A DNA stretch of 64,000 nucleotides from Fibrobacter sp. UWH4 (GTDB lineage: Bacteria > Fibrobacterota > Fibrobacteria > Fibrobacterales > Fibrobacteraceae). Location: contig NZ_FRAY01000004.1 in assembly GCF_900142475.1 (NCBI RefSeq), forward strand, positions 62,001 through 126,000. Reading direction: 5' to 3'. The position numbers were made by a program, and so were the translations under genes. The notes beneath the pieces were generated by a model. It was not told where the DNA came from. It saw only the letters and a program-made list of their open reading frames with translations, and did no database searches. Below are positions 34,959 through 59,305 of this stretch, one piece after another (positions within the stretch are counted from its first letter, which is position 1; every line of letters begins with the position of its first letter).

Positions 34959-35801
34959 TTATTTCAATCGACAAACAATTTCATCAACCAACGCGTTAAC
35001 AGGCCATTTCCCAGAACGATCCATTCCAATCACTTTTTTAAATTTTGGATTAATAAATTTACATTCAGAATCAAGATATAGACGTTGGTGATTTTTTCTT
35101 ATTTTTTCACCATCTTCTGTCAGATCATGATAAGCCCGGCCTCCCAAACATACAATCAATTTAGGTTTTACCAAATCAATTAAAGTTACTGTTTTATCAA
35201 TAAAAAATTTGCGTATATTCCATCGTTGCTTCTTTCTTGATAAATTATCAGAATTCGGGAACAAAGTATTTCCAATAAATTTATTTAAAAGCGATAAAAG
35301 ATTATTGAAATTGTCTGTCGCTATGGGATAAAGATTTATAAAAGAAATTTTCTTGCCAAAAGTTTCTGCCCATCGAGGCATCTTAGATTCATTTATACAT
35401 TCACTTTCATTTGGATATAACTTTTCGGCACAGCCCCGTACAATATCAACAATTTGTTTGGAAAAAGAATTATTCGAATGTTCTGAAAATTCAAACCAAT
35501 GCGTAGGTTCTCGTTTATTTTCGAAACGGTTCTTGTTATAACGAGCATTGTTGTCTTCAAAAAATACAGGCGGTCTTTCACCCACATCGGGAAAATGAAA
35601 CACATTTTGATTCCAATTTTTTCCATAATTCGGATTTATACCAACGAACAAAATGTCTGGCTGATAAATAAGTTTTGATTGCAACCAAATCCATCCTTTA
35701 TAACATTCATATTTATCCTGATTCTCGGTAAGTTCATCAATCAAAAGTCTATATTCTTTCTCAAGAAGATAAAATTCTTTACAACATTCAAATTCATTCA
35801 T
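34959..35801 (-). CDS. AT-rich hypothetical protein, possible UDG-like fold
   Basis: A 280-residue protein encoded by DNA much richer in A and T than its neighbours, which suggests recent transfer. The motifs P-D-I-L-F-V-G-I-N-P-N-Y-G (about 45-60) and K-L-I-V-C-L-G-G-R-A-Y (about 215) resemble the nucleotide-binding strands of the uracil-DNA-glycosylase superfamily. A clear catalytic motif is not identified, so this is a guess. ATG 35801 is used. A TTG ten codons upstream is the alternative. No partner gene is evident. Confidence 0.4.
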   Translation of the reverse strand: MNEFECCKEFYLLEKEYRLLIDELTENQDKYECYKGWIWLQSKLIYQPDILFVGINPNYGKNWNQNVFHFPDVGERPPVFFEDNNARYNKNRFENKREPTHWFEFSEHSNNSFSKQIVDIVRGCAEKLYPNESECINESKMPRWAETFGKKISFINLYPIATDNFNNLLSLLNKFIGNTLFPNSDNLSRKKQRWNIRKFFIDKTVTLIDLVKPKLIVCLGGRAYHDLTEDGEKIRKNHQRLYLDSECKFINPKFKKVIGMDRSGKWPVNALVDEIVCRLK

Positions 35802-35946
35802 ATCAAGATTTTTCTTTTTTAACAATTTCAAAAAAATAGCACGCAGGTTTAAGTCATTTTCTATACACTTGGGTTATTAATTCACATACAAAATTCAATC
35901 TCTTTTGAAAAGGGCCGCACCACTCGTGGCTAGACCCGGCGCAGGC

Positions 35947-38900
35947 CTAGTCCTTAACGCAACGGATAGAGTATCCATCGTCACTGCTCTTTCCGCCAAA
36001 TGTGCGATATATACTTCCGTCAATACCATTTCCAATTTCCACTACATACATCATATTTTCGTTATACTCGTTAGGTGTTATAAAAATTGTATGAAGATCA
36101 TCTCTACGATTAACAAATCTACCAGACATTCTTTCGCCAGCAGGAAGAGCGGAAAAACCATAGGTATTTGTGCCATTGCAGTCAGTATCATAGTATGAGC
36201 ATTTCCAACCATACTGCGACTTAAGTTGTATGCCGGCATAAGATGTTCCACATTCAGCCGTCTTTCCTAAAACGAACTCGGAACCAACTGTAGCAAATAA
36301 GGTTTCCCATTCGGTATTATTTGGCAAATGCCAACCTTCGGGACATATTCCTCGTACTTGATTAGTGCGCCAACATGTCGTTTTATAGCCACATCCTTTT
36401 CCATGTGTACTAAAAAATCCCACGCTATCCATAGCGACAGACCATGAGTACAAACGACCATATTTTGAGCAACTGTCTATATCGTTGTTATAGCACCAGG
36501 AACGGTCTTTCATTTCTATGTATGTGGTGCTATCAGAATAATTTAAGTTCTCAGCCATCCATGTTTGTGAGCCAATAACGGTTGTTTTGTATGTCTTTCC
36601 ATCTCGGTTATCCGTTAAAGAACCATATCCAACAAATTCTTTAGTAGCATTCCACAAACTATTGCTGCATGAATATACAGAATCATATGACAAAGACAAA
36701 TGTATTCTTATTTCATCCCCTTCTATATAGCTGACACACCCTTTGTTAAGGGATACTTCTAAATCATTAACATCTCTGAATACTCCAGAATCGCAAACAT
36801 ATTTGTATGAAGAATAAATCTCACCGTTCACAATTGATCCATCTGTCAAGCAAGTTTTTCCATAGGTATTAAGTTCCAATTTTGTCGCTATAGTCCAAAT
36901 CATTGACTTGCATATATAATAGTTGGTCCCAGATTTCCCTACTTCACCCTCGCGACCTATCGTGCAGCCACCCAGATTTTTTTCCACACTCGTCGCAGCC
37001 TGCCATTTGCCATTCTTGTAGATGTAATAATTATATGTATACACACTCCCTACTTTAACTTCGCCCTCCGTTCCTGCATTCCAACCATATGTATCACACT
37101 CCAATGTTGTCGCATCAGTCCAAACTTTCGACTTACAAATGTAATAACGATAGGAAGAACCGTACGACGAAGTACTCAACACCATTTTTTCAATAGAACC
37201 CTCTCTACTGACCACGCAGGCTCCCAAACTATCTTCAATTTCATTGGCAGAGGCTCGCCACGCTCCATTTTCATACACATAATGCTTATCTGCATTTACC
37301 TTTCCCGCTCTAACTTCACCTTCTGTACCAGCTTTCCAACCATAGGTATCGTATTCCAAAGCCGTTGCGACTGTCCAAGTTTTTGACTTGCAGATGTAAT
37401 AGACATTATTCAATTTACTAACAATTCCCTCGTTCGTTGTAGAGCAATATCCGAGTCCAAATTCTTCAGCCGATATCTGAACCCATTTTTTTGATTCACA
37501 AAGATAATACTTACCATTGAGAGAATTCTTTTCATTCTCCCTACCAGTCACACAAGCGCCTAAGCTATCTTCAATTTCATTGGCAGAGGCTCGCCATACT
37601 CCATTTTCATACACATAAAATTTACCAGCATTCACACTCCCTGATTTCACTTCGCCTTCCGTACCAGATTTCCAGCCGTAAGTATCATACTCTAGCACAG
37701 TCGCCGTTTCCCAAGCACTATTCTTGCAGATGTAATATATTCCGTCATATTTGCTTACCACTCCTGCGTTATTTTTCGCGCAAAGGCCGATGGAGGTTTC
37801 CCTTTTAGAGACTTCCCAATTGGAGCCATTGAAAACATATATGGTATCTGTCACGTTTCCTTTCTTGAATTCGCCAGATTTTCCTGCAGACCATCCGAAG
37901 GGATCCTTCTGATAGGTGGTTGCGTCGTTCCAATGACTACCATCACAGATAAAATACTTGTTGTAGTTCTTGCTCAACTTGTTGCTATTCGGAGCAACAA
38001 CATTCAGGCGCTTATCTGAACATCCGCCCAATCCATACACATTATTCCAGAAGGTTTCCAATGGGTTCTCAAACTTCGGAACATCCAGAATGTTCCAAGC
38101 CTTGACATTTGCACGAATTCCTGAAATATCAATTTTCGTTGCAAAATCAGCCATCGCAGTTTTTGTTTCAGCATCATCCCAAACGCCGTCCGATTCGAAA
38201 TCTACGATAAACGAGTCTATCGCAGCCGTGATTTCAGCATCAGTTCTTTCGCCAAGGAAAAGCAGACTCAACACCATCAGACTCGCGTTGGCATAATTCA
38301 TATTATCGTCCTGACTATCCTCAAAGACGCTCAGATTCTCGCTGTACTTGACTGTGGTCGGCAATTCAAAGGCGGTCATAATTTCCTGGTCAGCCTGTTT
38401 CTTTGCCGCATACACGCTATAACCCTTGCGCACCAAATATAGAGCGCGACTATATTCCAGATGGGTCAACAGATTTACATTGACCTTATTTCTAGGCTCG
38501 TTTTTCTCATCCGACAACGCAGTCTTTAAATCGGTCAAAGCAAACAAACTGATGGAGTCCCTGGAATATTCACCAGTTATTTCATTCCGGTACTGGCCAT
38601 GAACCTCAACACACGCATAAGGCGAAAGCAGGCTCACATTAGGAATCACAAAATCACCCTTATTACTGCTAACTTCATCCTCATACACCATCCCGGTGTA
38701 TTTCAGACTATCTTCGGTCAGTTCGCGCAAGTAAACGGGAGAACCGAACATAAAGGGGCCCTTCTGCGCCACACCAAGAATCGAACGATTCTTCACGACC
38801 AGACTATCTCCAGAGTAAGCTTCTTTGTTAAGGGACGAAGAGCTTGCAACCGATTCAGAATTTTCCGATGTCGCAGATGACGAAACCGACATGGCAGAAG

Positions 38901-39213
38901 ATGAACCAGGCATGACATCGGGAGGATTGTTGCCATCCGAAATTTCACTCAGGTCAATCCAAGTATTGTTTTGACAAAGATAGTCCGTCAGCTTTTCGGC
39001 AACATAGACCGTATCGCCCTCGCGCTCAATAGTACAACGGCCCATTTCCGCAAGGGTTCCCACCTCACGACCATCATCGTTAACAGTCGCCTTTGATGAG
39101 TTGCTAGAATCGCCACCGCAAGCGAACAGATGGGAGCAACAAGAAATCGTCACGCCAACCTTTAGCAAGTTCATAACAACATACTTATTTTTCATACTTT
39201 TGAGCCAAGCCAT
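35947..39213 (-). CDS. Large TIGR02145 lipoprotein with repeated modules
   Basis: A lipoprotein of 1088 residues. The start is ATG 39213, behind GGAGGCTATC, and a lipobox (L-F-A-C) closes the signal. After a Ser-rich linker comes a domain of about 250 residues. Then about ten modules of roughly 40 residues follow, each built around Y-x-C/Y-x-x-x-x-W (for example Y-I-C-K-S-K-T-W) with recurring Y-G-W-K-A-G-T-E-G-E-V. The C-terminal 200 residues are the TIGR02145 domain. It starts 11 bp after the stop of the gene at 39225, so both form one operon under the structured leader at 41162-40909. A cell-surface role is likely. The ligand is unknown. Confidence 0.85.
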   Translation of the reverse strand: MAWLKSMKNKYVVMNLLKVGVTISCCSHLFACGGDSSNSSKATVNDDGREVGTLAEMGRCTIEREGDTVYVAEKLTDYLCQNNTWIDLSEISDGNNPPDVMPGSSSAMSVSSSATSENSESVASSSSLNKEAYSGDSLVVKNRSILGVAQKGPFMFGSPVYLRELTEDSLKYTGMVYEDEVSSNKGDFVIPNVSLLSPYACVEVHGQYRNEITGEYSRDSISLFALTDLKTALSDEKNEPRNKVNVNLLTHLEYSRALYLVRKGYSVYAAKKQADQEIMTAFELPTTVKYSENLSVFEDSQDDNMNYANASLMVLSLLFLGERTDAEITAAIDSFIVDFESDGVWDDAETKTAMADFATKIDISGIRANVKAWNILDVPKFENPLETFWNNVYGLGGCSDKRLNVVAPNSNKLSKNYNKYFICDGSHWNDATTYQKDPFGWSAGKSGEFKKGNVTDTIYVFNGSNWEVSKRETSIGLCAKNNAGVVSKYDGIYYICKNSAWETATVLEYDTYGWKSGTEGEVKSGSVNAGKFYVYENGVWRASANEIEDSLGACVTGRENEKNSLNGKYYLCESKKWVQISAEEFGLGYCSTTNEGIVSKLNNVYYICKSKTWTVATALEYDTYGWKAGTEGEVRAGKVNADKHYVYENGAWRASANEIEDSLGACVVSREGSIEKMVLSTSSYGSSYRYYICKSKVWTDATTLECDTYGWNAGTEGEVKVGSVYTYNYYIYKNGKWQAATSVEKNLGGCTIGREGEVGKSGTNYYICKSMIWTIATKLELNTYGKTCLTDGSIVNGEIYSSYKYVCDSGVFRDVNDLEVSLNKGCVSYIEGDEIRIHLSLSYDSVYSCSNSLWNATKEFVGYGSLTDNRDGKTYKTTVIGSQTWMAENLNYSDSTTYIEMKDRSWCYNNDIDSCSKYGRLYSWSVAMDSVGFFSTHGKGCGYKTTCWRTNQVRGICPEGWHLPNNTEWETLFATVGSEFVLGKTAECGTSYAGIQLKSQYGWKCSYYDTDCNGTNTYGFSALPAGERMSGRFVNRRDDLHTIFITPNEYNENMMYVVEIGNGIDGSIYRTFGGKSSDDGYSIRCVKD

Positions 39214-39224
39214 GATAGCCTCCA

Positions 39225-40844
39225 TCAATCAACATCCTTGAGACAACGAACAGAGAAACCACTACCTTTAAATTCATCTATTAGGCCCGGAAAGTCTTTG
39301 TAATAACTCAAACATATGTAGTTCGCGTAAGAAGAGCCATTCTCTGAAGACGTCCAGAAATAAGCATTGTAGCCTATGCTTGAGTAATCCCCAAAATCCC
39401 TGCCACCGACAGGGAGCGCCGAAAAACCGAAGGCATCGGAACCTTTTCCATCATCCTCCCAGCCTGTTGTAGATTTAAGGACTTTTGCCGCAATGTGTTG
39501 CCCACCAACAGCCTCAAACAAATCCATCCACTCACCAGGCGTAGGCAGATGCCATTTCTTAGGACAAGCAGTCATTGCGGCATTCCAAGAGTAAAACCGA
39601 CCATAAGAAGCACAATTGGAAACTTCATCATTGTAGCACCAACTACTATCTGTTTCGTAGTTCAGGTTCTCCGCCATCCAGGTCTGCGAGCCAATAGTAA
39701 CGGTCTTATAGTTCTGGCCATCGCGACCATCGGTCATATACCCCTGAGTCACTTCCGAAATCACACTAGGTGATAAAACTTTAGCAGGGCCCTTAATACA
39801 ACGAACAGAATTGCCATTGGTCGAGTTAACTTCAGTCAGACCAGTGAAGTTAACATGAGACCCGCTTTCCCCATTAAGTCCAGTCCACCACCACTCCGAC
39901 CATCCCACACCATACGCTTCGTAAACAGTACACTCGTCGTAAGAACCATCGCAAATTTTTGAGGCACTCCAGAAGAACGTTATATGACTACTACCATAAT
40001 AGTTTTCATAGGCACCCTGGCGAATTCCTGCGGGAAGAGCAGTAAACGCGTAGGTATCTGTGCCATCCGCGTCAATCATCCAGCCTGATACAGATTTTAA
40101 GGTTTTATCTGCAGATTCAGATCCACCTACAGTTTTGATTAACGAATCCCATTCGTCATACGTGGGTAAATGCCAATTTTCAGGACAAACTTCCATAGCT
40201 GCATTCCAAGAATAGAGGCGACCATATGCCGCACAATTAACGGGATCGTCATCGTAGCACCAGCTACTGTCTACCGAATAGTTCAGATTTTCCGCCATCC
40301 AGGTCTGCGAACCGATAGTCACCGTCCTGTATGTCTGACCATCGCAAGAGTCTAACAAGATATTGTCAGTATTATCAGAAGAGGAAGACTCTCCAATATG
40401 TGAATCACTTGATTTCTCTATTTCATCTTTTATGCTGGAAGAACTCAATGCGACCGATGAGGACGATTCTTTATCGCTAGAAGAAGAGTTTGTCTTGTCC
40501 ACACTACTACTGGATTCACCGCTATCACTCTGAACGGAGGAGGAAGACTCTTCTTTGTTAATTTCTTGAACGTGTGAATCTAGGGAATCTGCGTTTATCC
40601 ATTTACCCTTTGTGCAGACAAAGTCGGACTTTTCGTCCTTGACAAAGACAGAATCACCCTCAAGATCATCGGAACAAGCCCCCAAGTCATCAACGGACGA
40701 TACAAATTCAACTTTTTCAGGAGAGCCACTACTGCCGCTATCGCCACCACAAGCGAATAGAAGTGCGCAACTAGAAATTGCCACACTAGCCTTTAGCAAG
40801 TTTTCAATGATGTTTTTTGCATCCGTTTTCTTGTTCCAAGCCAT
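39225..40844 (-). CDS. Lipoprotein with two TIGR02145 domains
   Basis: A 539-residue lipoprotein. ATG 40844 follows GATGGAGGCGGTC. The frame is open far upstream, but that part is the structured leader. Signal with L-L-F-A-C, a module with F-V-C-T-K-G-K-W, then a Ser-rich low-complexity linker. Two TIGR02145 domains follow at about 215-385 and 400-539, each with D-G-Q-x-Y-x-T-V-T-I-G-S-Q-T-W-M-A-E-N-L-N-Y and a W-H-L-P-T segment. It is the first gene of a two-gene operon with the related protein downstream, which has the same N-terminal architecture. Likely surface exposed. Confidence 0.85.
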   Translation of the reverse strand: MAWNKKTDAKNIIENLLKASVAISSCALLFACGGDSGSSGSPEKVEFVSSVDDLGACSDDLEGDSVFVKDEKSDFVCTKGKWINADSLDSHVQEINKEESSSSVQSDSGESSSSVDKTNSSSSDKESSSSVALSSSSIKDEIEKSSDSHIGESSSSDNTDNILLDSCDGQTYRTVTIGSQTWMAENLNYSVDSSWCYDDDPVNCAAYGRLYSWNAAMEVCPENWHLPTYDEWDSLIKTVGGSESADKTLKSVSGWMIDADGTDTYAFTALPAGIRQGAYENYYGSSHITFFWSASKICDGSYDECTVYEAYGVGWSEWWWTGLNGESGSHVNFTGLTEVNSTNGNSVRCIKGPAKVLSPSVISEVTQGYMTDGRDGQNYKTVTIGSQTWMAENLNYETDSSWCYNDEVSNCASYGRFYSWNAAMTACPKKWHLPTPGEWMDLFEAVGGQHIAAKVLKSTTGWEDDGKGSDAFGFSALPVGGRDFGDYSSIGYNAYFWTSSENGSSYANYICLSYYKDFPGLIDEFKGSGFSVRCLKDVD

Positions 40845-40908
40845 GACCGCCTCCATCATTAAGCACCTATGGAGTTCGCCCCAATCGCAAAGAATCCTGC
40901 CATATTTT

Positions 40909-41162
40909 GTATGAATACAAAAAAGGCGCGAGTCGTTGCATTTACCAAAGTGAGGCTGTGCAATGCCTAAGAACGATAAACGCAAACGACCCACGCCCCA
41001 TAAGGGCTGTTGCCCCTTGGCCATACGACCAAAGACCGACATAAAAATCGGTACGACAAACTGAAGTATACCGCAAAACGGCATACCTGCGTGAGCGTTC
41101 GCCCTGTCCTCGTTCTTTTGAAACTTGCACATTTCACTTTGAGAACAAGAGCAAAACTCTTT
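40909..41162 (-). ncRNA. Structured leader RNA, copy A, with terminator/antiterminator switch
   Basis: Minus-strand 5' leader of the lipoprotein operon. From 5' to 3': a small AGAG-loop-CTCT hairpin, then a hairpin with outer GTTCT/AGAAC and inner TGAAA/TTTCA pairs. P1 (41104-41086, GCGAACGCTCACGC) and local hairpins come next, then P2 (40999-40981, GCGTGGGTCGTTTGC) and P3 (40938-40925, CAACGACTCGCGCC) followed by TTTTTTG. P2 can pair with P1 over 14 bp with one bulged base, or with P3 over 13 bp to form an intrinsic terminator. The two pairings exclude each other. Related RNAs occur at 58085 and 57800. Their trigger is unknown. Confidence 0.7.
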
Positions 41163-41535
41163 TACCCCTAAAAAATAATTTAAAAATAGGCAAATAGAAC
41201 AAAAAATTTACAAGAAAACACATTATTTGACGAAATAACGCATTTTTTCAATAATCAACTAAAGCGCTCATCCAATTTGGAGTAAAATTGCATGTAATTC
41301 CTTGATTATTCAAAGCCAGGCGTTGCGGGCTGGCGTCTGAAGCCCGCATAGAAGGGGTAGCGGAAGACCCGGCTAGGGCGGGTTTAATAGGAGATGCCCG
41401 ACCAAGTCGGGCATGACACCAGGGAGGGGTCGGGGCTGTAGCGAGGGGAAGACATGCCCCTCTTATTTAAAACTTTTGTATATTACCTCCTAACAGGCAC
41501 TGGCAGCGGAATTCCGTCTGCAAGCCTTGACTGAC
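41163..41535. other. Long intergenic region with short hairpins and a dispersed repeat
   Basis: No gene is supported here. The first 130 bp are AT-rich and probably hold the promoter of leader A. Around 41335-41350 GCGGGCT pairs with AGCCCGC. The segment GGGTAGCGGAAGACCCGGCT at about 41356 may be part of a wider repeat, and 41389-41418 is a clear dispersed element. The end (about 41490-41535) contains ATTACCTCC and the arms leading into the large hairpin before rhuM. Confidence 0.35.
41389..41418. repeat. Dispersed palindromic repeat
   Basis: AGGAGATGCCCGACCAAGTC followed by GGGCATGACA. Its inner arms GCCCGAC and GTCGGGC pair. The outer sequence is shared with 26054-26083 (reverse) and 19187-19248. 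Confidence 0.65.
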
Positions 41536-41607: not shown

Positions 41608-41641
41608 TTTATAGGAGCAAAATTTGTTTATAGGAGCAAAA
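41604..41641 (+). repeat. 19-bp tandem duplication containing the rhuM ribosome binding site
   Basis: TTTGTTTATAGGAGCAAAA occurs twice in direct succession (41604-41622 and 41623-41641). Each copy has an AGGAG box, but only the second is at the right distance from the ATG at 41645. Confidence 0.9.
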
Positions 41642-41644
41642 AAA

Positions 41645-42598
41645 ATGAAAGAAACCGAAGAAAAAGGTGAAATCGTCCTTTACCAGCCGGAAGGTGAAGT
41701 CCGCTTGGAGGTGCGTGTTGAAAACGAGACGGTCTGGCTCACGCAGGCACAGATGGCACGATTATTCGAGAGAGACCGTTCCGTTATTGCAAAGCACATC
41801 AAAAACGCGTTCAATGAAGGCGAATTAGATTCCAAAGTGGTATGTGCAAATTTTGCACATACCACTCCGCATGGCGCAATCAAAGGGAAAACACAATCTT
41901 CGGAAGTCGTCCTATATAATTTAGATGTCATCATTTCCGTCGGCTATCGAGTCAAGTCCATTGCAGGAACACGTTTTCGCCAGTGGGCAAATAAAATCCT
42001 GAAAGACTACATGCTCAAAGGTTATGCCGTAAATCAACGAATGGTTGCGACTGGAATGCAGATCGCCAATCAGTTTCAGGAACAACGGCAATTAATTGAA
42101 AACCAGGGAACGAAACTCGAAAATGTGGACAATCGTCTTTCGACCGTTGAAAAACATATTGATTTCTTTGTCAAAGCCGTCCAAACACCCACAGGAGGCA
42201 TCCTTGCGACAGGAACTCGGTTTGACGGACTTGTTCTGATTGCTGATTTGGTGAAATCCGCGAAGCGGTCCGTGGTGTTTATCGATCCATATGCAAATCT
42301 CGATGTTTTAAAATTTGCCGCGATGCGGGCAAAAGATGTTAAGGCTGTCATTTATTCCGCTCATATCACACCCGAATTTAAAGCAGCCAAGGACATGCAC
42401 AATAAGCAATATCCTGGTTTGGAATTAAAAACGATGCGCACTATTCACGACCGATTTTTGCTTGTGGATGATACAGTTTATCACTTTGGGGCCTCGTTCA
42501 AGGATATGGGTAATGAAATGACGGCTTTTAGCGTTTTGAATTTCGTGACGCCGGAAGAAGTCATCTCCAAAATCCAGGCAAGTATGAAGGGAAAATAA
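41645..42598 (+). CDS. rhuM: RhuM-family protein with C-terminal PLD-like domain
   Basis: A 317-residue protein. The N-terminal RhuM domain (about 1-140) includes V-W-L-T-Q-A-Q-M-A-R-L-F-E-R-D-R-S-V-I and N-L-D-V-I-I-S-V-G-Y-R-V-K-S. RhuM proteins are known from pathogenicity and phage-related islands, and their biochemical role is unclear. Residues from about 180 form a phospholipase-D-like half (F-D-G-L-V-L-I-A-D-L-V...I-H-D-R-F-L-L-V-D-D) in which H-x-R-x4-D replaces H-x-K-x4-D. The same C-terminal domain is in the ORF6N protein at 58307. A 31-bp palindrome lies inside the coding sequence. It stands alone, with its own hairpin-containing leader. Confidence 0.82.
   Translation: MKETEEKGEIVLYQPEGEVRLEVRVENETVWLTQAQMARLFERDRSVIAKHIKNAFNEGELDSKVVCANFAHTTPHGAIKGKTQSSEVVLYNLDVIISVGYRVKSIAGTRFRQWANKILKDYMLKGYAVNQRMVATGMQIANQFQEQRQLIENQGTKLENVDNRLSTVEKHIDFFVKAVQTPTGGILATGTRFDGLVLIADLVKSAKRSVVFIDPYANLDVLKFAAMRAKDVKAVIYSAHITPEFKAAKDMHNKQYPGLELKTMRTIHDRFLLVDDTVYHFGASFKDMGNEMTAFSVLNFVTPEEVISKIQASMKGK
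41836..41866 (+). repeat. 31-bp perfect palindrome inside rhuM
   Basis: Arms AGTGGTATGTGCAAA and TTTGCACATACCACT (15 bp each) flank a single central T. The segment is read as K-V-V-C-A-N-F-A-H-T-T. It could form a strong hairpin in the mRNA or bind a dimeric protein. Confidence 0.92.
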
Positions 42599-53254: not shown

Positions 53255-54691
53255 CTAATAAGGAATTAGTTCTGCAAGTTCGCTTTGCGCAGAAGGATTA
53301 TTTGCGTAGTTTCGCATGACAGATTTCATGTCGAGGAGGATGCAGGCAATTTTGTGGTAAGGTTTTGAACGATCTTTCCAGTCGCCATAGATATAGCCGA
53401 CGCGTTTCATTGCATAAACGTCATTGCGAGGGAGCTCCGCGACCGCGGCAATCTCATCCCATTTCCCAGCATCCGCGCAATATGGCATAATGAATGCGTT
53501 GTAGATAGGTTTTGGCGAGGAGTCATCCTGAGCGGAGTGTAACGAAGTCGAAGGATCTCCATTCTCTTCTAAAATTTCTTTCCAGTGCGTTTCCACATAT
53601 TCCGCATAAGCCATCTGCTTACACACGGATTCGGCCCCCGGCAAATGTGAATTGAATCCGGTCAAGCCGTATTTGTAGTACTTGGAATCAAGGATATACA
53701 CACCCTCCCCCACAACCATTATCGTATCTGGTCGGAGTGTGGAACGTTTCGGGTCGTTCAGAACTATTTCCTCTTCGGATTCATCAAGTTTTTCATCGCG
53801 GCATCCGTCATTCCACCGTAAATGCGGATTGAATTTATCCTTGGCAACTCCCTGCGGCAACTTCCCGAAAATTTTATCCACCATCGCTTCCCAAACGGGG
53901 GCGAAGGTGTTTACGCCAAACAACGGCTCGTTTTCACTACCATCTTCGCCACGATTTTCCTTGTTTTCCAAATAACGGACCATCTTTAGCATGGCATGGA
54001 AAAGTTCCAAATGTTTGTCATTGAATGTTGCCGCAATTTTATCCTGAATTACTTCTGCAAACAATTCGTAATCAAACAAAAGTTCCGGTTCTTCGACTTC
54101 ATTTTCTGAAATGCCGTAAAGCGGACCAATCAGCCGAGCAGATTCCTTGACGCAAAACTTGTGGACGAGCGTAATCAGGTTGTCTTCACGGTAACTCGTC
54201 TTGCGCGTAATCAAGTTCAGATATACAACCTGATCGTGACCTTCTTCGTCTTTGACGACCTGCGGCTTAATTCTTTTAATTGTTCGCGGCCAGCTGATTT
54301 TGCCGGAAAAACCCTTCTTGTAAATCGTTTCGGATTCCACAAAGTAGCCGAAATCGAGATAGTACTGCAATACCGAAAGATACGCGTAGAACGGGAATTC
54401 CAGTTGGGATTTTCTCAAGTCTTCTTCGGAGAAATAGCTTTGCAAGGACTTGCCATTCAATACGGCAATAAGCTGGTAGAAATCTTGCTTGCAAATATCT
54501 TCAGACGGCTTTGATGCACGATACCCCATCGGGAAATAGATTTTGGGGCGGTCATTCTCAATCCTTATCCCGACAAACGATTTGTCCTTCTTTTCGTCAC
54601 TTGAACACCAAGCGTCATACACGCAGAAATCCGCAAAAGACGTGAAAGCCTTTTGTGCGGGTTCTGCGATATGTTGTGCAAACGCGTTCAT
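53255..54691 (-). CDS. LlaJI-type restriction endonuclease subunit
   Basis: A 478-residue protein of the LlaJI/McrC-like class, the nuclease partner of an McrB-type ATPase. The PD-(D/E)XK core is visible late in the protein (L-R-P-D-T-I-M-V-V, then I-L-D-S-K-Y-Y-K-Y-G, with the D...D-x-K arrangement). The N-terminal two thirds are helical and probably contact the ATPase. Near residue 390 the residues D-P-S-T-S-L-H-S-A-Q-D-D come from a dispersed repeat inserted in frame, just after the nuclease core. It is the last gene of the methyltransferase-ATPase-nuclease operon and starts one base after the ATPase stop. Confidence 0.82.
   Translation of the reverse strand: MNAFAQHIAEPAQKAFTSFADFCVYDAWCSSDEKKDKSFVGIRIENDRPKIYFPMGYRASKPSEDICKQDFYQLIAVLNGKSLQSYFSEEDLRKSQLEFPFYAYLSVLQYYLDFGYFVESETIYKKGFSGKISWPRTIKRIKPQVVKDEEGHDQVVYLNLITRKTSYREDNLITLVHKFCVKESARLIGPLYGISENEVEEPELLFDYELFAEVIQDKIAATFNDKHLELFHAMLKMVRYLENKENRGEDGSENEPLFGVNTFAPVWEAMVDKIFGKLPQGVAKDKFNPHLRWNDGCRDEKLDESEEEIVLNDPKRSTLRPDTIMVVGEGVYILDSKYYKYGLTGFNSHLPGAESVCKQMAYAEYVETHWKEILEENGDPSTSLHSAQDDSSPKPIYNAFIMPYCADAGKWDEIAAVAELPRNDVYAMKRVGYIYGDWKDRSKPYHKIACILLDMKSVMRNYANNPSAQSELAELIPY
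53521..53560. repeat. Dispersed repeat inside the restriction endonuclease gene
   Basis: GTCATCCTGAGCGGAGTGTA followed by ACGAAGTCGAAGGATCTCC. In the coding (minus) frame it gives G-D-P-S-T-S-L-H-S-A-Q-D-D. The same C-A-T-C-C-T-G-A/G-A-G-C core is seen in the other elements. Confidence 0.65.
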
Positions 54692-56446
54692 TTAAGAATT
54701 TGCCTGCTTTTGCAACTTTGCCTTATCTACGTCATTCATCTTGAAAATCTTTTCAAAGGACTCAAATCCGACGGACGTTTCAAAAGCGTCTATCAAATCC
54801 GAAAGGGCGTTGACTTTGTCGTCCTTGACGAAAATCTCGCCAGACTTATTGCGCTTGAAAACATCGTCCCATAGGTACTTGAGAACCTTTTCCGCAAAGT
54901 CTTCTTTCTTGATTTTGTCCACGTCGCCGATTTTTTCGCCTGTGATGAACCAACCGCCCAGACACTTATCATCAGCCTTCAAAACAGCCATCTGTGGCAA
55001 GAGAATCTTTTCGTTTATCCATTTACGGAAATCACCCCAGTAAACGCCTGTATCGTCAATTTCGGTCTTGTACTGGGCGGATTTTTCGTCCAAAACATTC
55101 CGAATCATCTTCGATTTGAACCGGCGTTGGAACGCATTATCCATCATGAACACGTTTTGGTCATTTGTGTTCATCGTCGCGTAGATAGAAAGATTCGGCG
55201 GCAAGCGCACAGCCGTATTGTTGATGAACTTTATTTTGTCGCCGTACGGGATGGAATCGTCGTATTCAATCTTTTCCGGATTATCCGTACTTTTCTGGCG
55301 AACATACGCGTTCACATCAATGTTTGTGACGCCATAGGAACTCCAACCCGTATTGTAAATGTTACCGGAAAGTTCTTCAGGGCCGTCTTCCGGGCGAATA
55401 CGGTCTAGCAACTGGAACATCTCCCCAAAAATGGCGGCCGCATTGCCACGATTGATTTCCTCTATGATTAAGAAGAATGGCTCTGCGGGATTACGATATG
55501 CCCTGCGCACGATTTCCGCAAACGGACCTGGTTTAAAGCGATATTCGACACCGCCGTTGTCCGGCTTCACGTAAGGATAAATCTGCCCCACGAAATCCGC
55601 ATTGCAGTATTCCGGGTGGAATACGCAACGAACCTTGTGATATTCCTTGTCCGCGACACCGTACTTATCCAATTCGACGTTGATGACCTTATTTACTTCA
55701 TAGCTCTTGCCACACCCGGGAACACCGTAGTAGATGATTTGGGTGGGGGTGAAAGAAACATTGTTTTCCTTTTCTTGATTATCCTTTTCTGATGAGATAA
55801 TAGGCGTCTCATTTTGATTTTTTTCGCGTTCTTTTAATTCCCAATCAGCCCAATCAGTCCATTCCGTTTGAGGTAAGCTCAAATTAGAATAAGTATAACT
55901 ATTATCATCAACGCTCACACAATATAAATGAAGTGTATCAAAATGCTCGATGAAAAAGCCATAACACATCAAACGTTCTTGATAATGTCTTTGAATTTCT
56001 TCAAAGGATTCTTGGTTTTTTATTGTATCATAAGTTGTATGAGGAGAATATTTGATTGATCGTCTCCTGTAATGAGATTTGTTAACATCTTGTATTTTCG
56101 TTAACAATAGAATGATTGGAGTATTCCGAAAAATTTTGGCATTGTTTTGAAAATGAACAATAACATTATCAAATTTTGATGCTAATTGTATTTCCTGATA
56201 TTCGGGATTTAAATACGATTCGCTTGCAGTGACGAATAATTTCTTCTTGCCTAAAATGCAAGATGTTTTAGCCAAAGGGACTGAATTAAAGTACATTCCC
56301 TTTAACATATTCTCATAACCTTCCGCTTTGAAATAATACGGAGGCATATCATCTCTAGGCTCTCGTGATTGACCAAGAGCTGTTTCCCATGAAGGACATT
56401 CTCCATTTTGTGGAGTAAAAATCAAAGATCCTTGGTCAAGTCTCAT
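54692..56446 (-). CDS. McrB-like AAA+ ATPase/GTPase of the restriction system
   Basis: A 584-residue motor subunit. A variable N-terminal half (about 1-230), presumably DNA recognition, precedes an AAA+ domain with Walker A (Y-G-V-P-G-C-G-K-S), Walker B (F-F-L-I-I-E-E-I-N-R-G-N) and the McrB-type signature A-T-M-N-T-N-D-Q-N-V-F-M-M-D-N-A. Such subunits use GTP to drive cleavage by the nuclease partner. The start at 56446 follows GGAGGCAACT and overlaps the methyltransferase stop (ATGA). A start at 56497 would give a longer overlap without a site. Together with its neighbours it forms a LlaJI-like restriction-modification system. Confidence 0.88.
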   Translation of the reverse strand: MRLDQGSLIFTPQNGECPSWETALGQSREPRDDMPPYYFKAEGYENMLKGMYFNSVPLAKTSCILGKKKLFVTASESYLNPEYQEIQLASKFDNVIVHFQNNAKIFRNTPIILLLTKIQDVNKSHYRRRSIKYSPHTTYDTIKNQESFEEIQRHYQERLMCYGFFIEHFDTLHLYCVSVDDNSYTYSNLSLPQTEWTDWADWELKEREKNQNETPIISSEKDNQEKENNVSFTPTQIIYYGVPGCGKSYEVNKVINVELDKYGVADKEYHKVRCVFHPEYCNADFVGQIYPYVKPDNGGVEYRFKPGPFAEIVRRAYRNPAEPFFLIIEEINRGNAAAIFGEMFQLLDRIRPEDGPEELSGNIYNTGWSSYGVTNIDVNAYVRQKSTDNPEKIEYDDSIPYGDKIKFINNTAVRLPPNLSIYATMNTNDQNVFMMDNAFQRRFKSKMIRNVLDEKSAQYKTEIDDTGVYWGDFRKWINEKILLPQMAVLKADDKCLGGWFITGEKIGDVDKIKKEDFAEKVLKYLWDDVFKRNKSGEIFVKDDKVNALSDLIDAFETSVGFESFEKIFKMNDVDKAKLQKQANS

Positions 56447-57501
56447 AGTTGCCTCCATATATGAGCTAAAAGAATTCCAACTATATTCACGTCCCAACCA
56501 TTTCCTGCTCGTTTAGACAACTGGGAATACGATTGTCCGTCGAAGTTGATTTCGCAAATCTTTTTATCGCGAGAAATGTCAAATCCCATAAGGCGAAATT
56601 GTTCGTGAACAGACATCTTTCGAACAATTTCCTTGCCTTTGTCTTTGCCAGACTTCTTGGGAGGTTCAATAACACGAAGACTATTATGTTCCGGCTGGGT
56701 GATTGTTATGCTGTAGCCATCTTTTTTGATTTTCTTGTTATACACATCAAAACACAACGGCGTTTTTACGACAAAAGAATCAATGTGATGTTTCACCTTC
56801 AAATGAGCAATTTGATCATCCGACAGATAAAGAAATTTTTCAGGGGAAATGTCTAAGAAATCTGCCATTTTCAAATCGCTATGGATTTCTGGAGGCTTTA
56901 TTTCAAAGTTTTCTGGTAATCCTCCTAACCGAGCAAACATCCAAAGGCGTTCTCGATTCTGCGGCACACCGTAATCTTTTGAATTCAAAACAACCTTTGC
57001 CAATGTGTTTTCTTCCGTCGTGCCATATCCCATTTCAATCAAGTCTTTTACAAGTTGATCGTGGATGGGCTTAAACTTTCCAGAAGTAAAGCCTTTAACA
57101 TTTTCCAAAAGGATATACTTCGGCTTTTTTACTCGACATATTCGAATGATATGTCCAAGCATTGCCCCTCGACCATAGGGATCTTCGGTTCCCAATTGCA
57201 TTCCTGCGGAAGAGAATGGCTGACAGGGAAATCCTCCGGTGAAGAAATCAAAATCAGGTAATTCATCAGGGTTTATTTTTGTAATGTCGCCCCAGTTCTT
57301 TATAGGATTTCCCTTCTCATCTCGATGGTTTGCGTCAAAGAGTTTTGAAGCGTATTTATCGAACTCTGAATAACCAACAACAGTGTAATCAAAATTCGTC
57401 AAAGCTTTTTTTGCTCTTTTCAATCCAAAGGATGCTCCGCCATAACCAGCAAAGCCTTCAAAAACCCTGATTACATTCTTCTTCTGTCGAGTCTGGGCCA
57501 T
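56443..57501 (-). CDS. DNA (cytosine-5) methyltransferase
   Basis: A 352-residue m5C methyltransferase with all key motifs: I (F-E-G-F-A-G-Y-G-G-A-S), IV with the catalytic Cys (G-G-F-P-C-Q-P-F-S), VI (E-N-V-K-G), VIII (Q-N-R-E-R-L-W), IX-like (M-S-V-H-E-Q-F-R-L-M-G-F) and X (G-N-G-W-D-V-N-I-V). The target-recognition domain lies between VIII and IX (about 185-310). It protects host DNA from the ATPase-nuclease pair encoded next. Only one methyltransferase is present, while LlaJI itself uses two. The start has GGAGCGAT and is preceded by two structured leaders and a 16-bp palindrome. Confidence 0.95.
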   Translation of the reverse strand: MAQTRQKKNVIRVFEGFAGYGGASFGLKRAKKALTNFDYTVVGYSEFDKYASKLFDANHRDEKGNPIKNWGDITKINPDELPDFDFFTGGFPCQPFSSAGMQLGTEDPYGRGAMLGHIIRICRVKKPKYILLENVKGFTSGKFKPIHDQLVKDLIEMGYGTTEENTLAKVVLNSKDYGVPQNRERLWMFARLGGLPENFEIKPPEIHSDLKMADFLDISPEKFLYLSDDQIAHLKVKHHIDSFVVKTPLCFDVYNKKIKKDGYSITITQPEHNSLRVIEPPKKSGKDKGKEIVRKMSVHEQFRLMGFDISRDKKICEINFDGQSYSQLSKRAGNGWDVNIVGILLAHIWRQL

Positions 57502-57533: not shown

Positions 57534-57574
57534 CTCGCGGGAGCGGTTCTGGCCGATTCGCTTGGCCGGGGTGC

Positions 57575-57800
57575 GGGCAAAAAGAAACGGCGGGGAGCCG
57601 ACTCACTCCTCGCCTAAAAGCGCGACATTTTCAAAAGAATACAATACACCCGCAAAAACCCGGGCGTATACGGTACGCCCAGGGTACACTACGCCCATGC
57701 AATACACGGGCTGTGGCGAGTCATTGTCTTATTCTTATAGCCTTGAAAGTGTCTAGTTTTCAGATGAAGAACAAGAGCGATACTCAACGAGCGTTCACCC
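57575..57800 (-). ncRNA. Structured leader RNA, copy B', directly before the methyltransferase
   Basis: Minus strand. The 5' part matches leader B closely (GCTCTTGTTCT, then the hairpin with loop CTAGACACTTTC), with the outer stem ATTCTT-type pairs (57732-57738 with 57764-57771). After it, P1 TGACTCGCC (57723-57715) can pair through CTCGCC with GGCGAG of P2 (57614-57598). Alternatively P2 closes a terminator, GGCGAGGAG with CTCCCCGCC and one mismatch, followed by GTTTCTTTTT. Between them GGGCGTA-CCGTA-TACGCCC and a second hairpin form. The switch parts differ in sequence from copies A and B, yet the plan is the same. Confidence 0.6.
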
Positions 57801-57837
57801 TCGTCCTTGCAAACTATTCCAAGCATTTTCTGGATAC

Positions 57838-58085
57838 AAAAAAGGCGTGGAGTTGAATGCACTTACCATCTGAAGGCCTAGACTGCCTGGCTATAATAAG
57901 CACAAACAACTCACGCCCCATAATGGCCGCTTGCCTACAGGCAGATTTATCAAATATGCATGTACCAAAACGATGCGGCAGGCCTAAGCCGGTCGCAGAC
58001 GTGAGCGTTCGCCTTATTCTCCATAGCCTTGAAAGTGTCTAGTTTTCAGATGGAGAACAAGAGCAAAAACTCTATTTGCCTTAAA
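57838..58085 (-). ncRNA. Structured leader RNA, copy B, with terminator/antiterminator switch
   Basis: Minus strand. The 5' hairpin has perfect outer arms TTCTCCAT and ATGGAGAA (58017-58024, 58050-58057) and inner TGAAA/TTTCA. P1 (58013-57999, GCGAACGCTCACG) pairs with P2 (57919-57901, CGTGAGTTGTTTGTG) over 13 bp with one bulged base. Alternatively P2 pairs with P3 (57855-57844, CAACTCCACGCC) and is followed by six T residues. A TTGACA (minus strand of 58102-58107) lies upstream as possible -35. The arms differ from copy A but pair as well, including GAGTTG/CAACTC against GTCGTT/AACGAC. Confidence 0.72.
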
Positions 58086-58306: not shown

Positions 58307-59305
58307 ATGGCTAGAAAGACCGAAAAAACGGATGATATCGCACCTAACCCGCTCATGGAGTCGGGCATCGGAAAGATGATTCAAGTCATTCGAGGCAAGC
58401 AGGTGTTGCTTGACCGCGATTTGGCGGTGCTTTACGGGGTTGAAACGAAGCGTATAAATGAGCAGGTAAAGCGCAATATTGAGCGTTTTCCTATAGATTT
58501 CTGCTTTCAACTGGATGCCACGGAGCATAAATTTTTGAGATCGCAAATTGCGACCACAAAAACCGAAACCAGAGGAGGCCGACAATATTTTCCATATGCT
58601 TTTACCGAACAAGGCGTTGCGATGCTGTCTTCGGTTCTAAAAAGCGAGACAGCAATCAAAGTCAACATCGCCATCATGCGGGCATTCGTGCAACTACGTC
58701 ACCTTATGATGGGTAACGGCGGTCTTATCAACCGTCTTTCAAATGTAGAAGCAAAGGATTTGGAACAGGACTGCCGCTTGACCGGTCATGACGAGCATCT
58801 GCTTGACCATGACCGTAAATTTGACGAACTTTTCGAGGCAATGGACCGTGGCGAGCTCAAATCCAAGGGTTTATTTTACAATAACCAGGAGTTCGATGCC
58901 TATGTATTTGTCTGCGACCTGATTCGTCAGGCAAAGAAAAGAATCGTACTTGTCGACAGGTACGTGACCGAGAAGACTCTGGCCATGATGCTCAAGCGGG
59001 AAAAGGGCGTTTCTGTGACAATCTACACCTATGACAAAAGCAAAGTCCTTGAAATGGACCTAGCCACTTACAACGAGCAATATCCCGACAGCCCGATGCA
59101 AGTCTTGCCAAGTTACGGAATGCACGACCGATTCTTGTTCATAGACGATACGGCCTACCACTTCGGGGCTTCGCTCAAGGATTTGGGCAAGAATACGTTC
59201 TTTTTTACGCAGGAAGATTTCACGTTGGACGAAGTGCTGAAGAAATCGCAGAAAATTCAGGCAGAAAAAGAAAGTCAGGCATTACAAGATGACAACGCGG
59301 ATTAG
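58307..59305 (+). CDS. ORF6N-domain protein with C-terminal PLD-like domain
   Basis: A 332-residue protein. Residues 20-115 form an ORF6N/KilA-N-related DNA-binding domain (V-I-R-G-K-Q-V-L-L-D-R-D-L-A-V-L-Y-G-V-E-T-K-R-I-N-E-Q-V, F-P-Y-A-F-T-E-Q-G-V-A-M-L-S-S-V-L). From about 190 a phospholipase-D-like half follows (F-D-A-Y-V-F-V-C-D-L-I-R-Q-A-K-K-R-I-V-L-V-D, M-H-D-R-F-L-F-I-D-D) with H-x-R-x4-D. The same C-terminal domain is fused to RhuM at 41645. Such proteins occur on phages and islands. A nuclease or DNA-end sensing role is plausible but unproven. An imperfect 31-bp palindrome lies in the DNA-binding domain. Confidence 0.82.
   Translation: MARKTEKTDDIAPNPLMESGIGKMIQVIRGKQVLLDRDLAVLYGVETKRINEQVKRNIERFPIDFCFQLDATEHKFLRSQIATTKTETRGGRQYFPYAFTEQGVAMLSSVLKSETAIKVNIAIMRAFVQLRHLMMGNGGLINRLSNVEAKDLEQDCRLTGHDEHLLDHDRKFDELFEAMDRGELKSKGLFYNNQEFDAYVFVCDLIRQAKKRIVLVDRYVTEKTLAMMLKREKGVSVTIYTYDKSKVLEMDLATYNEQYPDSPMQVLPSYGMHDRFLFIDDTAYHFGASLKDLGKNTFFFTQEDFTLDEVLKKSQKIQAEKESQALQDDNAD
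58532..58562 (+). repeat. Imperfect 31-bp palindrome inside the ORF6N gene
   Basis: Centred on A at 58547, the inner arms TCGCAA/TTGCGA and outer TTTTTG/CAAAAA pair, with two mismatches in 15 positions. It is read as F-L-R-S-Q-I-A-T-T-K. It resembles the perfect palindromes in rhuM and the DUF1016 gene. Confidence 0.6.

Follow-up and report, generated by a model that had tools for sequence, protein, structure and literature searches.

We propose that the element at positions 40919-41159 (minus strand) of the analyzed window, a 64,000-nucleotide stretch of contig NZ_FRAY01000004.1 of Fibrobacter sp. UWH4, is probably a cis-acting leader RNA of a new family of transcription attenuators common to Fibrobacterota and Bacteroidota. 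The folded leader has two Fib_succ_major lipoprotein genes downstream of it. The parts of this main copy and the associated genes are as follows.

40908-41170, minus strand: leader RNA, main copy (subtype A), by covariance-model match (cmsearch, model R1, 219 bits)
41149-41159, minus strand: H1, small 5' hairpin GAG-UUUU-GCUC, by sequence and conserved pairs with double changes
41104-41148, minus strand: H2 domain, by pair counts and own versus cross duplex energies
41148-41141 and 41111-41104, minus strand: H2 5' arm UUGUUCUC and H2 3' arm GAGGACAG, closing the loop that holds hairpin H2a
41135-41120, minus strand: hairpin H2a, GAAA...UUUC, inside the H2 loop
41134-41140, minus strand: 5' strand of long-range helix 1, AAAGUGA; partner UCACUUU at 40953-40947
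41125-41131, minus strand: 5' strand of long-range helix 2, UGUGCAA, in the H2a loop; partner UUGCACA at 40963-40957
41112-41117, minus strand: 5' strand of long-range helix 3, AAGAAC; partner GUUCUU at 40974-40969
41104-41086 (41090-41103 as listed feature), minus strand: P1, antiterminator strand GGGCGAACGCTCACGCAGG, pairing with P2
41000-41089, minus strand: subtype A insert in the P1-P2 interval, absent in subtype C, where a short loop joins P1 and P2
40981-40999, minus strand: P2, GGGGCGTGGGTCGTTTGCG, strand common to both pairings
40938-40983, minus strand: inner stem (40983-40975 with 40946-40938) and apical region
40968-40953, minus strand: apical hairpin AGGC-AUUGCACA-GCCU, with the helix-2 partner in its loop
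40938-40925 (40925-40937 as listed feature), minus strand: P3, terminator strand CAACGACTCGCGCC, pairing with P2
40919-40924, minus strand: T-run immediately 3' of P3, by sequence
39225-40844, minus strand: lipoprotein, operon gene 1, with two Fib_succ_major (PF09603/TIGR02145-like) matches (Pfam, 9.2e-53)
35947-39228, minus strand: Fib_succ_major protein, operon gene 2 (Pfam, 5e-28)

Read from 5' to 3', the RNA begins with H1, the 5' arm of H2, the helix-1 strand, H2a with strand 2 as its loop, strand 3, the 3' arm of H2, and P1. It continues through the loop or insert to P2, the 5' strand of the inner stem, partner 3, the AGGC...GCCU hairpin with partner 2 as its loop, and partner 1, and it ends with the 3' strand of the inner stem, P3, and the T-run. 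The original prediction had P2 pairing either with P1, over 14 bp with one bulged base, or with P3, over 13 bp followed by TTTTTTG; the coordinates given for the three strands were exact, and both pairings were recovered in the main copy, with energies of -23.8 and -22.7 kcal/mol, respectively. The terminator/antiterminator layout that it recognized, two mutually exclusive pairings of P2 of which the second carries a T-run, holds in 158 copies from Fibrobacter or near contigs and in 65 distant ones. The spacing from the switch to the lipoprotein start codon, put at about 65 nt, is instead 74 nt when counted between the T-run's end and the likely ATG at 40844, upstream of which lies a GGAGG at 40854-40850. 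To this layout we add the inner stem, which prolongs the P2:P3 stem, and three long-range helices that link the 5' hairpin loop with the P2-P3 loop.

Selection on structure, earlier argued from paired changes, is borne out by strong covariation, both in double-change counts set against shuffled and slid versions and in comparisons of own with cross helices. Among 51 short-loop copies, H2 and P2:P3 are paired in 92.8% of cells and 16 of the 38 pairs show double changes (0/500 shuffles). The proportion rises to 37 of 38 pairs in 82 sequences from two phyla, where double-change cells number 473, compared with 120 after shuffling and 38-73 after sliding, the copies being related rather than independent. 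Own-versus-cross duplex energies also speak for H2 and the inner stem being genuine helices, and the T-run follows P3 in 147 of 148 copies. The evidence for P1:P2 is of a different kind. This helix is paired in 95.1% of cells in the 51 short-loop copies, compared with 27-54% when slid, and every one of the 82 two-phylum sequences has a P1 complementary to its P2 (-17.0 versus -9.2 for shuffled P1); the changes in P1:P2 are mostly one-sided (G-U/A-U type), with double changes in just 3 of 16 pairs. In two divergent copies, P1, P2, and P3 are altered together: against the consensus CUCACG / GGCGUGGG / CCACGCC for the three strands, L063 has CUCGCACC / GGUGCGGG / CGCACC and L046 has CUCGCACC / GGUGUGGG / CCACACU. 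The sequence with two partners, P2, is conserved, and the strands with one partner vary freely. On these comparative grounds, H1, H2, P2:P3 with its inner stem, the three long-range helices, and the T-run are well established as parts of the predicted structure; as the alternative partner of P2, P1 is supported by its complementarity and by triple changes in some copies, the individual pairs showing few double changes. The element has three features of intrinsic-terminator attenuator leaders, namely, a GC-rich stem (the 13 bp of P2:P3 plus the inner stem) directly followed by a U-run, a conserved and mutually exclusive antiterminator helix, and a leader position on the same strand as the gene.

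Two other readings of the sequence were tried and set aside. The CUUAU/AUAAG sequences that are shared prompted a four-strand exchange, in which the H2 arms would pair with the inner-stem strands; the pairing of the H2 5' arm with the inner 3' strand is unsupported (own, -0.1; cross, -0.1) and that of the H2 3' arm with the inner 5' strand finds weak support (own, -3.6; cross, -3.2). A coding sequence was likewise rejected: although the main copy can be read through in the lipoprotein frame, a stop-free sense frame is present in just 45 of 158 copies, and the changes are compensatory.

The long-range helices were spotted by eye and then tested by comparing the pairing of each copy's own two regions with that to the regions of other copies. 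In 153 distinct rows of the Fibrobacter set, which includes a few half-copies and antisense matches, helices 1, 2, and 3 reach at least 6 bp in 82, 86, and 80% of own comparisons and in 10, 27, and 13% of cross comparisons, with 116, 48, and 120 different pair types, respectively. The corresponding values for 65 distant copies, found with a model holding none of the long-range pairs, are 98, 100, and 75% (own) versus 7, 45, and 18% (cross). The strands are hypervariable across the two phyla. Within the UWH4 genome alone, the 14 copies carry 14 different helix-1 and 14 different helix-3 sequences, and the helix-1 and helix-3 types reassort among copies. We propose that docking strands so specific to each copy would keep paralogous leaders from base-pairing with one another; compensated drift would leave a similar picture. 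Two copies (L200 6479-6663 and L160 3607-3792) have mismatched helix-1 strands with the other helices matched, and these appear to be chimeras arising by recombination of paralogous leaders.

Further copies in related genomes, the existence of which had been put forward as a check, are plentiful. BLAST with the element finds 9 places in the UWH4 genome, and a covariance model (R1) built from 13 copies of this genome finds 14 full copies there besides half-copies. R1 also has matches in all 36 other genomes of the genus in a first sample, with 3-21 in each genome; in a second sample, nearly all of the genus has matches, the exception being one incomplete genome. The contig records found by pattern name the genus Fibrobacter. 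Three subtypes can be told apart by the P1-P2 interval. Subtype A, to which the main copy belongs, has an insert of about 90-95 nt. Subtype B has another insert and, downstream, a second half-copy of the 5' domain with a second terminator-like hairpin. In subtype C, a short loop turns P1:P2 into a plain hairpin with as many as 16 bp, and an extra hairpin lies upstream. At five loci (L048, L148, L159, L160, and L239), two copies of subtype C or related forms lie 1.4-2.1 kb apart in the same orientation, several of these pairs with a DUF4417-like or other small gene in between and a restriction-modification gene after the second copy. A DUF3800-XI RNA (Rfam RF02975; L049 4288-4334, plus strand), which lies beside a DUF3800-like gene and is divergent to a leader copy, belongs to a separate family.

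The second copy in the window, copy B, is of subtype B. As foreseen, both pairings are present in it with different bases. Its surroundings are as follows.

57827-58083, minus strand: leader RNA, copy B (cmsearch, 234.7 bits)
57572-57796, minus strand: second half-copy downstream of copy B (cmsearch, 42.8 bits; sequence)
56443-57501, minus strand: C-5 cytosine DNA methyltransferase, first gene after copy B (Pfam PF00145, 1.2e-52; PADLOC MTase_II)
54692-56497, minus strand: AAA protein, type II restriction subunit, LlaJI-type partner (Pfam AAA_5; PADLOC REase_II, 8.8e-56)
53255-54691, minus strand: LlaJI-type restriction endonuclease (Pfam PF09563, 3.6e-27)

The H2 domain recurs in the half-copy, its long-range-helix loops the same as before, and a P1-like strand and a further GC-rich hairpin with a T-run follow it. 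Full copy and half-copy of subtype B are predicted to form a tandem, coevolving switch before methyltransferase genes. About 20 other subtype B loci have a half-copy 5' domain in the same place, with loops matching those of the upstream full copy.

A second covariance model (R2), made from 51 short-loop copies, reaches other families of Fibrobacterota and, via a copy in a Tannerellaceae MAG (L205), Bacteroidota. Matches were found in 82 of 295 genomes of that Bacteroidota order at an E-value of ≤1e-3 and in 29 of 395 genomes sampled across Bacteroidota at ≤1e-5, E-values from models built in the analysis being rough; none of 398 Pseudomonadota genomes has a match at ≤1e-3. Three Pseudomonas genomes that match the P2 pattern do so by chance, with no model match, and copies resembling those of Fibrobacter in Treponema, Bacilli, Lachnospiraceae, and a horse-gut Bacteroidales MAG are probably on misbinned contigs. 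Near-sequence searches of phages and plasmids (BLAST) and of viral contigs (exact-pattern scan) yielded no copies. None of the 4,227 families of Rfam 15 matches the RNA at its gathering threshold in the window, at 11 further loci of the UWH4 genome, or at the Bacteroidota loci L333 and L356; permissive thresholds likewise gave nothing on the window RNA, and at E-values of up to 1, two sets of distant loci (19 and 18) gave only subthreshold chance models. The view that this is no known riboswitch class agrees with these searches. At four loci in several distant Fibrobacterota genomes (L297, L298, L309, and L311), tRNA genes lie about 350-650 nt upstream of the leader, and these are possibly genomic-island sites.

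Genomic context clearly marks the position as that of a predicted leader and indicates the kinds of genes that follow. The first downstream ORF is on the same strand in 54 of the 56 informative distant copies, with upstream neighbors at 33:26; in Fibrobacter, this holds for 138 of 147, and the remaining ORFs are small ones within the 240-390-nt gap of subtype B or its kin. For subtypes A and C, the gap between leader and gene is typically 40-75 nt. It widens to 200-700 nt in several copies from Bacteroidota, where a second promoter could fit. A TAnnTTTG-like -7 box lies about 24 nt before H1 in many of the Bacteroidota copies, often with a TTTG further upstream. Counting first genes (simple ORF calls) once per sequence cluster, the 32 clusters of subtype C are mainly N6/N4 methylases and type I, IIG/IIL, and III restriction-modification proteins, and the 26 of subtype B and its kin include 16 C5 methylases, 4 EcoRI-type methylases, 2 N6_N4 methylases, and 2 Tsp45I-type endonucleases. 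Among the 48 clusters of subtype A, 15 are Fib_succ_major proteins and the rest zinc-ribbon/TM2 proteins, an OLD/Gabija-like ATPase, a helicase, and unknown proteins. In the UWH4 genome itself, a copy is directly upstream of both C5 methylase loci and of two of the five N6_Mtase loci. The element had been described as the leader of a TIGR02145 lipoprotein operon; this stands for the position of the main copy but not as a specificity of the family, the two other subtypes mostly preceding restriction-modification genes. Of 55 first genes from Bacteroidota and other families, 16 encode TonB receptors; lipoproteins, secreted proteins, and three methyltransferases are also found. At some loci (L333, L334, L337, and L356-L360), a second conserved hairpin (GGCCCUCUA...UAGAGGACC) is seen between the leader RNA and a SusC-type gene, just before the TonB-receptor start codon.

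The element could instead be a stand-alone sRNA, with any effect exerted in trans, that has its own promoter and terminator and is co-inherited with the gene. It does have a promoter-like region and a terminator, and Bacteroides is known to have multicopy sRNA families controlling SusC genes (FopS, PMC11697453). FopS and GibS, which are linked to SusC-type genes (PMC11697453), parallel the leader RNA in being multicopy, in belonging to Bacteroidota, and in this gene link. However, FopS RNAs are reported to be mostly intergenic or antisense and to act in trans by a shared seed (PMC11697453), whereas the leader RNA is in cis, is about 170-260 nt long, and has long-range pairing strands unique to each copy; identity with FopS was rejected on these grounds. 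Further, in both phyla the leader RNA keeps its orientation toward the downstream gene and stays close to it, another promoter would hardly fit into the 40-75 nt that follow the T-run in subtypes A and C, and P1 would be without a role. We give the sRNA reading a small but real likelihood.

In the attenuator mechanism that we propose, the leader would be made from its own promoter region as the first part of the message, and the three short strands of the H2 domain would pair with three strands of the P2-P3 loop. With P2 engaged by P1, P3 would be free and RNA polymerase would read on into the gene; with P2 engaged by P3, the long GC-rich stem and the U-run would constitute an intrinsic terminator. 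We infer that the two pairings alternate in the cell and that P1:P2 corresponds to read-through, with docking of the 5' domain on the P2-P3 loop as the likely tipping step. Locally, the competition for P2 is between -21.2 kcal/mol for P1:P2 and -22.9 kcal/mol for the competing part of P2:P3 (51 copies). Prefix folding without pseudoknots, at the stage where P3 is not yet made, predicts a nested rod of the three long-range helices and P1:P2, and the full-length main copy is predicted to flip to the fold with H2 and P2:P3. In most short-loop copies, a terminator fold calculated with pseudoknots disallowed is predicted to be less stable than the nested P1:P2 rod, by about 15-17 kcal/mol. A terminator fold that keeps the long-range helices as kissing loops would probably bring the two folds to similar stability.

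The predicted advantage of the rod is what gives a place to a constitutive structured leader, either a static, always-on read-through rod or a static terminator, without switching. We give this little credence: the local energies are near equal, and H2, the inner stem, and P2:P3, none of which a rod would need, covary independently alongside P1:P2 and the long-range helices.

A compact multihelix architecture joined to a P1/P2/P3 switch like an expression platform might also suggest a metabolite- or ion-sensing riboswitch, with the docked 5' domain and apical loop as the aptamer and the ligand deciding between P1:P2 and P2:P3. This appears improbable, since conserved unpaired nucleotides for ligand binding are not found, the positions conserved at 85% or more in the 82 sequences from two phyla being nearly all in helices, P1, or the T-run; the long-range strands are hypervariable; no Rfam family matches; and restriction-modification, lipoprotein, and TonB-receptor genes have no metabolite in common.

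That the structure is instead selected as DNA, as a mobile or recombinational element such as a cassette boundary or an attC-like folded site, is highly improbable: copies do adjoin defense genes, copy pairs flank single genes (L048, L148, L159, and L160), modules reassort, and some copies look chimeric (L200 and the second copy of L160), but the near-invariant T-run, the strict orientation of copies relative to the genes behind them, promoter-like boxes, the many RNA-typical G-U pairs, and the absence of copies from phage and plasmid collections and viral contigs in the near-sequence search all speak against it.

Returning to the attenuator, the docked nested fold with P1:P2 is favored in predicted energy over the undocked terminator fold, which would make read-through the default. 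The lack of both conserved unpaired bases and a shared metabolic theme points to a protein, an RNA polymerase-associated factor, or a physical cue rather than a metabolite. A tentative proposal, somewhat less likely than not, is that read-through is the default and that a factor, likeliest a protein or an RNA polymerase-associated one rather than a small molecule, favors termination. More speculatively, and with considerable doubt, these leaders could be an ancient RNA-only decision element of Bacteroidota and Fibrobacterota in which copy-specific docking strands prevent cross-pairing of paralogous leaders; these would set the read-through of restriction-modification and surface-receptor operons and so coordinate genes concerned with phage and DNA entry, the trigger being either a dedicated protein or some general cue, polymerase speed for example.

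Several known systems offer parallels. As in terminator/antiterminator attenuators and riboswitch platforms, one strand in a gene leader is common to the antiterminator helix and to the terminator helix with its U-run; unlike these, the leader RNA has no recognizable ligand pocket, has three extra hypervariable long-range helices, and goes with a regulon of restriction-modification and surface proteins. T-box leaders are likewise long 5' leaders in which a 5' domain gates the terminator/antiterminator choice, and tandem arrangements of them occur; however, there is no match to the T-box in Rfam, and the downstream genes bear no relation to aminoacyl-tRNA. The processive antitermination RNAs, HK022 put and the eps-associated RNA EAR, are similar in being structured promoter-proximal RNAs before long operons of accessory function. 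They differ in structure, and the leader RNA has a terminator strand of its own (P3) and no match in Rfam, in which EAR is present. ColE1-type kissing-loop antisense RNAs likewise have complementary hairpin loops that diversify between relatives, but both partners in the leader RNA are within one transcript.

Restriction-modification systems are dangerous if their expression is mistimed, and most of the controls known for them are proteins; a conserved RNA leader in front of type I, IIG/IIL, III, and m5C systems would add a new layer of regulation. TonB receptors and lipoproteins are typical phage receptors and nutrient uptake proteins. The presence of the same RNA before them would make a link between defense and surface remodeling testable in the dominant Bacteroidota of gut and environment. 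This is a large family with extreme covariation, and it is missing from Rfam; our search of the open literature turned up no previous account of leaders of this kind in front of restriction-modification or TonB-receptor genes, although large candidate lists (e.g., PMC8040213) could contain fragments.

Two further features of the window may be recorded. Both copies have divergent upstream genes on the plus strand (41624-42598 and 58307-59305), whose products have phage-type RhuM/ORF6N domains and similar-looking C-terminal halves. Behind the lipoprotein operon, a 290-amino-acid protein (34959-35831, minus strand) without a Pfam match reads like a uracil-DNA-glycosylase fold, and the protein after the leader in L305 resembles it.
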